64,000 nucleotides of DNA from Rhodococcus sp. 14-2470-1b (GTDB lineage Bacteria > Actinomycetota > Actinomycetes > Mycobacteriales > Mycobacteriaceae), in assembly GCF_002259415.1 (NCBI RefSeq), contig NZ_NPFY01000031.1, positions 1 to 64,000 of the forward strand, written 5' to 3'. The notes under the pieces were generated by a model. That model had not been told where the DNA came from. It saw nothing but the letters and a program-made list of their open reading frames with translations, and made no database searches. Shown one piece after another: positions 37,169 to 40,059 of the stretch; the stretch's first letter is position 1, and each line of letters starts with the position of its first letter. A program made the position numbers and the translations under genes.

Positions 37169-37783
37169 TCACCGTTCGAGCGGTTCGTCCGTTTCGAAGG
37201 GCAGTGCGTGACCGAGAACTGCGAACGGTCGTCGGTCGCCCGCGAAGGTGAAGTTGCGGAGTACGTCCCCGAAACCGAGACTTCGGTACAGGCGCCACGC
37301 GCGGTTGTTCTCGTTCTCCACTTCCGGAGTGGACAGCAGCACGCCGCTTTCCGGGCGGCCGCGAAGGAGTCTGCGCGTGAGTGCGCGACCGAGTCCGTGT
37401 CCCTGTGCATGTGGGGACACGTGCAGCTCGGTCAATTCGAAATAGTCCGAGAGGACAGAGTCGACGTACTCGTCATCGGCGCCGGATCTACGCAGACCGT
37501 CCCTGACCTGCTGGTGCCACCACTGATGCCGAGCACCCTTGTACCCGTACGCGACGGCGACCAGTGGGGAGTCGGGCGTGGGCAGGACTGCACCGACAGC
37601 GCACCATCCGGGGCGGAGGACGTGCTCGGACCACATCGGGGCGCGGTGATACTCCGTGCCTTGCGGGTAACCCATTGCCTCGACGTAGATCGCCAGCGCT
37701 TCGGGAAGGCGACGACGGAGTTCTCGGGCGGACAGATCGACCAGGTACGGGGTCGGTTCCGCGTCGGTAGCGACTGTTCTCAA
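37169..37783 (-). CDS. GNAT family N-acetyltransferase (Rv2170-like)
   Basis: A 204-residue acyl-CoA-dependent acetyltransferase. The acetyl-CoA loop is LTELHVSPHAQGHGLGRALTRRLL near residue 115, and the C-terminal part NNRAWRLYRSLGFGDVLRNFTFAG is typical of GNAT proteins. It corresponds to mycobacterial Rv2170, which is reported to acetylate metabolic enzymes. The start appears to be TTG with GGAAAGG directly before it. It is 19 bases upstream of crtO on the same strand and divergent from the HEPN gene across the LexA box. Confidence 0.88.
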   Translation of the reverse strand: MRTVATDAEPTPYLVDLSARELRRRLPEALAIYVEAMGYPQGTEYHRAPMWSEHVLRPGWCAVGAVLPTPDSPLVAVAYGYKGARHQWWHQQVRDGLRRSGADDEYVDSVLSDYFELTELHVSPHAQGHGLGRALTRRLLRGRPESGVLLSTPEVENENNRAWRLYRSLGFGDVLRNFTFAGDRRPFAVLGHALPFETDEPLER

Positions 37784-37790
37784 CCTTTCC

Positions 37791-37821
37791 TTGACGACTT
37801 GTCGGTGGGCACAGCTATATT
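37791..37821 (+). promoter_or_regulatory. Candidate sigma-70-type promoter of the HEPN gene
   Basis: TTGACG (37791-37796) and TATATT (37816-37821) are separated by 19 bases. The predicted start near 37828 falls at the left edge of the LexA box, which is the classic arrangement for repression. The leader to the HEPN gene would be about 148 bases. Confidence 0.55.
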
Positions 37822-37828
37822 GAATATG

Positions 37829-37844
37829 TCGAACGGATGTTCGA
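37829..37844. promoter_or_regulatory. Perfect LexA-binding SOS box
   Basis: TCGAACGGATGTTCGA is an exact match to the mycobacterial/actinobacterial SOS box TCGAAC-N4-GTTCGA, with both arms fully symmetric. It lies 46 bases upstream of the GNAT start and 132 bases before the HEPN start, directly after a -10 element reading toward the HEPN gene. LexA should repress that promoter until DNA damage. Confidence 0.85.
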
Positions 37845-38001
37845 TGTCGGTGATCCGGCGATGACCCCGAGGGAAGCGGGGCTCGCTGGATCCCTGACCT
37901 TAGATCGTCGTCGACGTCCGGTCGTTTCGGAAATTGCGGTCACGAACGGCGAATGCAATCGGGAGGTGTTCGAGTATGGCTACGAAGGTTCTCCGTGGTG
38001 A
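37837..38001 (+). CDS. Possible 54-residue leader ORF under the LexA box
   Basis: An ATG inside the right half of the LexA box opens a 54-codon frame (MFDVGDPAMTPREAGLAGSL and so on) that ends within the first codons of the HEPN gene. It has no Shine-Dalgarno, and no similarity I recognise. It might be a leader peptide coupled to the HEPN gene, or chance. Confidence 0.2.
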   Translation: MFDVGDPAMTPREAGLAGSLTLDRRRRPVVSEIAVTNGECNREVFEYGYEGSPW

Positions 38002-38419
38002 TGTGCGTCCGCCGGTGTCGCCGCGTGCTCGCGTACTGCTGGGCCGGGCAGATGCCTTGCTGTCGGGTTCCCTCGGCGCCGAGTCGGTCGCGGACCAATT
38101 TCTGGATTGCTACATGGCGGCCCTCCGTGGAGCGGCCGCGATTCTGGAAGTTGCGCCCTCGACGCGAGCAAGATCACGCAGTGCGTGGGTACTGCTGGCT
38201 AAAGCCGAGCCGGAACTTCAAGCCTGGGCGGAGTATTTCGCGAGCTACTCGTCGCTGCGAGCGGCACTGCAGGCCGGTGTGTCTCGCTCCATCGATCAGG
38301 ACGTCGCTGACTCGTTCTATCGCGAAGTCGGCCGGTTCCTGCATGTGGTGGAGGATTTCATCGGCGCGGATTCACGGCTCGATCGGGCAGTCCTGCCGCC
38401 TCGATCGATGTCGGCGTGA
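37976..38419 (+). CDS. SAV_6107-type HEPN domain protein
   Basis: A 147-residue all-helical protein: VSPRARVLLGRADALLSG, then SVADQFLDCYMAALRGAAAILEV, a conserved AWVLLAKAEPELQAWAEYF segment, and a last helix with REVGRFLHVVEDFIG. The latter contains Arg-x6-His, the spacing of the HEPN ribonuclease motif Rx4-6H. GGGAGG stands 9 bases before the ATG. The family is widespread in actinobacteria without a proven function. The LexA box upstream suggests a DNA-damage role; RNase activity is an inference from one motif. Confidence 0.85.
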   Translation: MATKVLRGDVRPPVSPRARVLLGRADALLSGSLGAESVADQFLDCYMAALRGAAAILEVAPSTRARSRSAWVLLAKAEPELQAWAEYFASYSSLRAALQAGVSRSIDQDVADSFYREVGRFLHVVEDFIGADSRLDRAVLPPRSMSA

Positions 38420-38672: not shown

Positions 38673-39104
38673 GTGCCACTCTCCGAGCACGAGCAGCGCA
38701 TGCTCGATCAAATCGAGAGCGCTCTCTACGCCGAGGATCCCAAGTTCGCTTCTCACGTGCGAAGCGGCCGTATGCGTACGGCTTCGAGCAAACGTCGCTT
38801 CCAGGCGGCCGCTTTGTTCGTCTTGGGACTAGTTTTGCTCATCGCCGGGCTGGCGCTGCCGTTCAAGCCCGGTGGTTTCCCGGTGATCAGTCTCGTCGGC
38901 TTCGTCTTCATGTTCGGTGCCGGTGTGCTGTTCCTACTCGGTGGGTCTCGTAAGGGCGCTGCTGCGTCACAGGAGGAGTCCGAAGCGACTGGCTCGGGCG
39001 GACCCAAGAGTTCGGGACCGAAACCCAAGTCCGGCCGCAAGGGCGGCGGCGGTTTCACTTCCCGTATGGAAGATCGTTTCCGGAAGCGATTCGAACAGGA
39101 CTAG
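38673..39104 (+). CDS. DUF3040 membrane protein (Rv2169c-like)
   Basis: A 143-residue protein. It opens PLSEHEQRMLDQIESALYAEDPKFAS, the DUF3040 signature, followed by two hydrophobic helices (AALFVLGLVLLIAGLALPF and ISLVGFVFMFGAGVLFLLG) and a basic, Gly/Ser/Lys-rich cytoplasmic tail. Start is GTG with GGGGGAGG 4 bases upstream, one of the strongest ribosome sites here, suggesting high expression. It is the last gene before the mraZ cluster, as in mycobacteria. Function unknown. Confidence 0.9.
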   Translation: MPLSEHEQRMLDQIESALYAEDPKFASHVRSGRMRTASSKRRFQAAALFVLGLVLLIAGLALPFKPGGFPVISLVGFVFMFGAGVLFLLGGSRKGAAASQEESEATGSGGPKSSGPKPKSGRKGGGGFTSRMEDRFRKRFEQD

Positions 39105-39627: not shown

Positions 39628-40059
39628 GTGTTCCTCGGTACCTACACGCCCAAGCTCGACGAGAAGGGCCGGCTCACGTTGCCGGCGAAGTTCCGGGATG
39701 CGCTGAAGGAAGGTGTGATGGTGAGCAAAGGTCAAGACCACAGCCTCGCGATCTACACCCAGGAAGCGTTCGCGGAAAAGGTAAGAAAGCTCACCGAAGC
39801 ATCTCGTTCCAATCCGGTTGCGCGCTCGTACATCAGGCAGCTCGGTGCGGGCACGGACGAGCAGAAGCTCGATGGTCAGGGCCGCATCATGCTCAGCTCG
39901 GACCACAGGCGCTACGCGAGTCTGGAACGCAACGTCGTCGTGAACGGATCCATCGAGTTCATCGAGATCTGGAACGAAGAAGCCTGGGCTCGCTACTCGT
40001 CCGAGGGTGAGCAGAGCTTCTCGGATGCAGTGGATGCATCCCTGGAAGGAATCTTGTAA
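39628..40059 (+). CDS. mraZ: Transcriptional regulator MraZ
   Basis: A 143-residue regulator with two SpoVT/AbrB-like half-domains: [21 protein letters not shown] in the first and [26 protein letters not shown] in the second, each with the DxxGR signature. MraZ forms a ring that binds repeated boxes upstream of its own gene and controls the dcw cluster. Start is GTG with GGGAGG 6 bases upstream. First gene of the division and cell-wall cluster, and the operator lies just before it. Confidence 0.97.

Follow-up and report, generated by a model that had tools for sequence, protein, structure and literature searches.

Our analyses suggest that a small HEPN gene of Rhodococcus sp. 14-2470-1b, located on the forward strand of the 64,000-nt stretch of DNA analyzed here (hereafter the window), is almost certainly driven by a DNA-damage promoter with predicted inputs from both LexA and PafBC. 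Its product is probably a non-catalytic accessory of translesion synthesis, a role suggested by the membership of related genes in translesion operons and by the damage control that the gene keeps for itself where it stands apart. We favor the two parts taken together, namely a damage-inducible gene with dual input that encodes a non-catalytic mutasome accessory, with a similarly measured degree of confidence. Given that the gene has the switches of damage genes and, in many distant relatives, shares operons with error-prone polymerases, the protein is probably a helper in mutagenic repair, not an RNA-cutting toxin. Sharing an operon is no proof of joint function. The preliminary description of this locus had proposed a damage-induced HEPN RNase or, alternatively, a partner protein; the second option fits best, with translesion polymerases as the partners.

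A perfect LexA/SOS operator, TCGAACGGATGTTCGA, is located at 37829–37844 (palindromic, with no strand assigned) and was identified by motif match, genome scan, and conservation. The ATG of the HEPN gene at 37976 lies 131 nt 3' of it, with GGGAGG directly 5' of the ATG. This operator is the sole zero-mismatch copy of TCGAAC-N4-GTTCGA in the window and one of six perfect sites in the 5.9-Mb genome, where sites with at most one mismatch numbered 100, compared with 8 for a reversed control pattern. A perfect LexA box at this position had been reported in the preliminary description and is confirmed here, as all 12 of 12 defined positions match and the site is conserved far beyond chance. Of 76 family loci, 66 had a TANNNT element located 2–11 nt 5' of the box, compared with 27 of 1,520 random positions. 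The HEPN gene thus has a palindromic operator at its promoter, as expected of the LexA (SOS) regulon.

Four of the six perfect boxes in the genome are located at the start of DUF222-type ORFs (L001, L002, L005, and L006; two by Pfam and two by eye), and one of the five boxes other than that of the HEPN gene lies just 5' of an imuA'-like ORF (NF058630, E = 3e-14, below the cut-off). The latter gene (contig C35:33836-40200; L004, L356) apparently stops after approximately 150 codons, and ORFs resembling, by eye, dihydrofolate reductase and a transposase were observed 3' of it. No ImuB or DnaE2 match was found around it in the stretch read (C35:33836-40200). The imu locus of this genome has possibly been interrupted by a mobile element.

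Lining up the promoters by the box brought out a second conserved element, TTGTCGGTG-N8-TATATT, located 7 nt 5' of the LexA box at 37799–37821 on the forward strand. On the basis of promoter alignment and genome scan, this element was annotated as a putative PafBC (RecA-independent) damage promoter, with TATATT taken as the -10 element. The PafBC-type promoter form of M. tuberculosis is given in the accessible text of PMC8151990 as TGTCGG-10N-TA-3N-T, and the corresponding pattern TGTCGG-N10-TA-N3-T, the motif of the PafBC regulon, has a perfect match at 37800–37821. The pattern TTGTCRGTG-N8-TANNNT has seven matches in the genome and none for the reversed control, and on the genome lists perfect copies of both motifs coincide at the HEPN promoter alone. 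On contig C12, a perfect PafBC match was observed beside a one-mismatch LexA site. The PafBC motif was missed in the preliminary description, which had instead read a TTGACG/TATATT promoter at this position. A sigma-70 promoter of this kind was ruled out by its 19-nt spacer and an empty promoter scan, and the conserved element is the PafBC motif.

Among relatives, 72 of the 76 named loci (described below) with a 0–2-mismatch box had a PafBC motif no more than 60 nt 5' of it, compared with 5 of 23,295 control stretches. The gaps between the two motifs in named loci were 7–8 or 16–18 nt, approximately one helical turn apart. The motif with at most one mismatch was present at 50 of 87 loci across the wider family and at 12 of 2,000 random positions. 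None of these 50 belonged to the 20 loci scored from g3, a Corynebacterium-like genus in which no copy with fewer than three mismatches was found. Beyond the family, a copy with zero or one mismatch was found in only 11 of 53 rows, with one locus entered twice. According to PMC8223512, recA is among the genes that have both damage signals. The HEPN promoter resembles that of mycobacterial recA, where a RecA-NDp/PafBC promoter and an SOS box serve one gene, and differs from it in that the two motifs are both perfect, are 7 nt apart, and precede a gene with no assigned function.

The HEPN gene was detected in all 37 genomes searched from the genus. The preliminary description had suggested looking for the box 5' of SAV_6107 genes in relatives, and a 12/12 box with several different 4-nt cores was present in 30 of 30 fetched genus loci (from 30 of the 37 genomes, that of the window included). 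Beyond the genus, 40 loci from 27 other genera of the family, with g3 considered apart, had 24 perfect and 11 one-mismatch boxes within 600 nt, so that a box with zero or one mismatch occurred at 35 of 40 loci and in 24 of 27 genera, the genera without it being g4, g7, and g14. The 30 g3 loci comprised 1 with a perfect box, 10 with one mismatch, 9 with two, and 10 with more than two. In all of these counts, loci from the same genus or species cannot be treated as independent. Named loci were taken from Rhodococcus, Nocardia, Tomitella, Antrihabitans, Millisia, Jongsikchunia, Kutzneria, Amycolatopsis, and others. At these loci, which are the best 80 of 421 confirmed and include several strains per species as well as overlap with the genome sample, so that the two surveys are not independent, a box within 450 nt upstream had 0, 1, and 2 mismatches in 27, 16, and 33 cases, respectively, compared with 4, 19, and 169 of 2,990 control windows. 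The four named loci without a box in this range are from Amycolatopsis and have a perfect box 710–951 nt upstream instead.

Outside the family, 54 of 56 stretches, or 53 of 55 distinct loci, had a 0–1-mismatch box in the 1.1 kb upstream of the gene; the box was perfect in 49 (48), and none was found in that range at L199 and L242. A box with zero or one mismatch was likewise absent from the Streptomyces-like f33, as judged from 11 loci and one further survey locus. At 7 of the 11 f33 loci (L168, L180, L182, L183, L184, L187, and L194), a 2-mismatch site starting with CCGAAC, mostly CCGAACNNNNGATCGA, was observed 287–299 nt 5' of the HEPN domain, and it is perhaps an altered or degenerate LexA site. 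The names given to g3 and f33, and to the Mycobacterium-like g29 below, are guesses. The operator is therefore kept with the gene, as in a LexA regulon, with f33, L242, g4, g7, and a third of g3 as exceptions. As judged from this joint retention of operator, promoter, and gene across many families, the damage-type control of the HEPN gene proposed in the preliminary description is supported.

In the window, the HEPN gene is preceded by a divergent GNAT acetyltransferase gene (37169–37783, reverse strand, by Pfam) and followed by a DUF3040 gene (38673–39104, forward strand, by Pfam) and by a gene at 39628–40059 on the forward strand, which we take to be mraZ and used as a synteny marker. GNAT, DUF3040, and mraZ are its neighbors in the window's family, where it is not adjacent to a polymerase gene. 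In g29, a sister genus, the HEPN gene is absent from 14 of 14 genomes, the GNAT and DUF3040 order is intact in all 14, and MraZ is in reach in 13. No PafBC motif and no 0–1-mismatch box was found at the 14 g29 loci; a 2-mismatch site was observed in the gap at one of them (L339). Since both motifs are gone while GNAT and DUF3040 are kept, the signals track with the HEPN gene and not with the GNAT, carotenoid, or DUF3040 genes. The co-control of the GNAT gene and the carotenoid operon raised in the preliminary description is thus unsupported. HEPN was also absent from one g27 genome, which had no DUF3040 match. If g29 is Mycobacterium, as we presume, ImuA'-ImuB-DnaE2 is present there without HEPN.

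The HEPN gene is widespread in the window's class, being found in 142 of the 197 class genomes sampled, and it was found in 20 of the 198 genomes sampled from the phylum, 12 of these from the class. A match was obtained in 46 families outside that of the window, and neighborhoods were read in 44 of them (f13 and f20 were left out because of cut contigs), with one to three per family and some of them short, ended by contig ends. These amounted to 56 stretches and 55 distinct loci (L210 and L251 are the same locus of genome G402). The commonest layout was LexA box, DUF6504, HEPN, DnaE2B, often a methyltransferase, DinB, and DUF3040, and an alternative layout was HEPN-ImuA'-ImuB-DnaE2. DnaE2, Y-family, and DinB genes were identified by Pfam/NCBIfam, DUF6504 by Pfam, and ImuA' adjoining HEPN by NF058630 (8.5e-53); product names are profile-based for a few representatives and rest on tblastn similarity for the others. 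We equate DUF6504 with the ImuB-C of the mutasome literature, judging from its position and a shared C-terminal pattern.

Of the 44 families, 33 had a translesion gene on the same strand within -1.5 to +9 kb of HEPN, as did 41 of the 56 stretches (40 of the 55 distinct loci). DUF6504 together with DnaE2B accounted for 24 stretches (23 loci) and ImuA'-ImuB-DnaE2A for 4; the remaining stretches had DinB only (11), DnaE2B only (1), DUF6504 only (1), or none (15). No same-strand translesion gene was found in the stretch read for 11 of the 44 families, and in two of these, f46 and f6, DnaE2 lies just past the limit or on the opposite strand. DUF6504 was directly 5' of HEPN in 51 of the 59 sampled genomes with both genes, the 8 exceptions all being from f31, and it occurred without HEPN in 27 of the 86 genomes with DUF6504. 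The HEPN family is thus found in mutasome operons, from which the window's own gene stands apart. A SAM-dependent methyltransferase gene was observed between HEPN/DnaE2 and DinB in 24 of 44 families (e.g., L202:8394-9293), and a second perfect LexA box (L210:16068-16083) fronts a separate DnaE2B gene approximately 8 kb after HEPN. The actinobacterial DnaE2 modules described in the available parts of PMC12926913 and PMC6511836 are ImuA2-ImuB2-DnaE2A, DnaE2B-[ImuB-C], and DnaE2B-[ImuB-C]-PolY-RecA. The HEPN operons share this make-up, with DUF6504 and DnaE2B or ImuA'-ImuB-DnaE2A, often with DinB, whereas HEPN would be an added part, absent from the main texts of both papers.

The 147-aa product of the HEPN gene (37976–38419, forward strand) matched the PF18726 HEPN_SAV_6107 profile (E = 4.3e-28, 98.2 bits, cut-off 27.2). 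An AlphaFold2 model built with 44 sequences reached a pLDDT of 82.8 and a pTM of 0.75. Its best rows in the PDB were 2hsb (Z = 14.2, rmsd 2.7, 118 aligned), 4nqf (13.1), the sacsin HEPN domain (13.0), and HepT chains (approximately 10); although helical bundles may reach such Z scores by chance, nearly all of the top rows have HEPN titles. The best Foldseek E value was 0.057, and a PDB sequence search with the HEPN-family alignment gave only two chance-level hits. Profile and predicted fold together point to membership of the HEPN superfamily.

Could the protein be an SOS-induced, toxin-like HEPN ribonuclease that cuts RNA after DNA damage? The HEPN fold and Arg116-x6-His123 in the window's protein favor this possibility, and the preliminary description had drawn on an Arg-x6-His in the last helix. 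The pair is indeed present here, and it is not a feature of the family. In the alignments of 36 diverse and 44 closer members, Arg116 and His123 occurred jointly in only 2 and 3, Arg116 alone in 26 and 10, His123 alone in 9 and 23, and an R-x4-6-H anywhere in the segment of the last helix in 7 and 14 members, respectively, so the conserved R-x4-6-H of HEPN ribonucleases was not found. Invariant positions of the 36-member alignment include W71, P79, F88, R95, G101, D112, and F121, a set other than the RNase pair. Consistently, the survey table of Anantharaman et al. 2013 (PMC3710099), a source available in part, marks the motif of HEPN-M (SAV_6107), the same actinobacterial Pfam family, as not conserved; HEPN-M is a table row there with no genomic association, and LexA does not appear in the main text. 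The two neighbors in the window, GNAT and DUF3040 by Pfam, include no MNT nucleotidyltransferase antitoxin, so the gene is not in a HEPN-MNT toxin-antitoxin pair. On the active-site counts, the ribonuclease reading was excluded, and we consider it highly improbable; from profile, alignment, and model, we infer that the HEPN protein of this clade is non-catalytic.

Control by LexA has a precedent in C. glutamicum, the only one of 14 control genomes with a PF18726 match. In the accessible text of PMC5055667, cg2381 is a LexA-regulon gene of unknown function (citing Jochmann 2009) and rises with ciprofloxacin by a log2 of 3.86, equal to recA, as cg2378 (mraZ) falls; neither a function nor a polymerase link is given for cg2381 there. 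The GNAT-HEPN-DUF3040 order occurred in 4 of 4 g3 stretches, with MraZ in reach in 3 of 4, and from gene order and numbering, cg2381 is probably the orthologue of the HEPN gene, resembling the window's gene as a predicted LexA target with the same neighbors by order. Since cg2381 already figures among the LexA targets and responds to ciprofloxacin, SOS control is known in one species. The claim of a new SOS effector made in the preliminary description is therefore pre-empted in part, as regards LexA control by this probable orthologue. No link between HEPN and a polymerase was found in the open-licence literature searched, and no open-licence papers on PF18726 or DUF6504 were found; the main text of the S. 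venezuelae LexA paper does not mention HEPN. Three points appear to be new, namely the conservation of the dual promoter, the rejection of a ribonuclease role across the clade, and the operon link to DnaE2/ImuB-C.

The same neighborhood could suggest a regulator of cell division or of the growth of the envelope that is induced in the SOS response, sits beside DUF3040 and the mraZ/dcw cluster, and would couple damage to division. DUF3040 lies on the same strand near HEPN in 30 of the 44 outside families read and is located 3' of HEPN both in the window and in 4 of 4 g3 stretches, mraZ is next in several loci, and the opposite responses of cg2378 and cg2381 to ciprofloxacin would suit such coupling. 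However, the GNAT-DUF3040(-mraZ) order persists in the 14 HEPN-less genomes, and ImuB-C and DnaE2 directly flank HEPN in the commonest outside layout, which makes this role unlikely in our view. Alternatively, HEPN may be an unrelated gene riding in an old SOS operon whose operator serves the polymerase genes, as a widespread cluster order could persist by inertia. Against this, HEPN retains a 0–1-mismatch box 5' of it in groups with no polymerase gene observed in its vicinity (the window's family, f14, f27, f30, f47, and Amycolatopsis), and g29, which lacks HEPN, lacks both motifs. We regard such hitchhiking as distinctly unlikely.

The tails of the family offer two further leads. Ala is the last residue of the window's protein (38414–38419), of 30 of 30 g3 proteins, and of 58 of the 70 other family proteins, 30 of these 70 being from the genus of the window; outside the family, C-terminal Gly (34 of 77) is more frequent than Ala (13 of 77). 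The residues before the C-terminal Ala are variable in family proteins, and we note a degron as a possible explanation of this residue, as a lead only. With one tail taken per family, Q-x-x-[LIFM] was found in 19 of 40 outside families, compared with 4.1 expected on shuffling; the families are related, and 14 of 133 rows (repeats included) had no tail and were dropped. It is absent from the tail of the window's protein. Sequences resembling HQPxLP or QLDLS recur right after the last helix outside the family (e.g., L116, L142, L166, and L236). The Q-x-x-[LIFM] tails resemble beta-clamp-binding motifs and may fit clamp binding, again as a lead only.

In the mechanism we propose for the mutasome accessory, PafBC would activate the HEPN gene from TTGTCGGTG-N8-TATATT, and LexA would repress it from the operator just past the -10 element, over the likely transcription start; binding of both regulators is predicted from their motifs. 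The helical, non-catalytic product would then serve as an adaptor or stabilizer in error-prone translesion synthesis. Across the class, it is encoded with parts of the DnaE2 mutasome (ImuB-C/DnaE2B/DinB or ImuA'/ImuB/DnaE2A), whereas in Rhodococcus and its relatives its gene lies away from the mutasome genes, under a damage promoter of its own. Physically, it may act on the polymerase, ImuB/ImuB-C, RecA, or the clamp, for example, by bridging DnaE2 to ImuB-C, RecA, or the clamp. More speculatively, and with some doubt on our part, the SAV_6107 HEPN protein might be an unrecognized mutasome subunit, in which a dead fold serves as an adaptor from DnaE2/ImuB(-C) to RecA or the clamp, is made only upon damage via PafBC and LexA, and is perhaps removed via the C-terminal Ala in Rhodococcus and its kin.

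In Actinobacteria, DnaE2 mutasomes are responsible for mutagenesis following DNA damage and hence for drug resistance. A widespread gene located between ImuB-C and DnaE2, and equipped with a LexA/PafBC promoter of its own where it is separate from them, is a candidate for a missing subunit. If true, this would assign a function to a gene long listed as a LexA target and would mean that the HEPN fold is used outside RNA cleavage.
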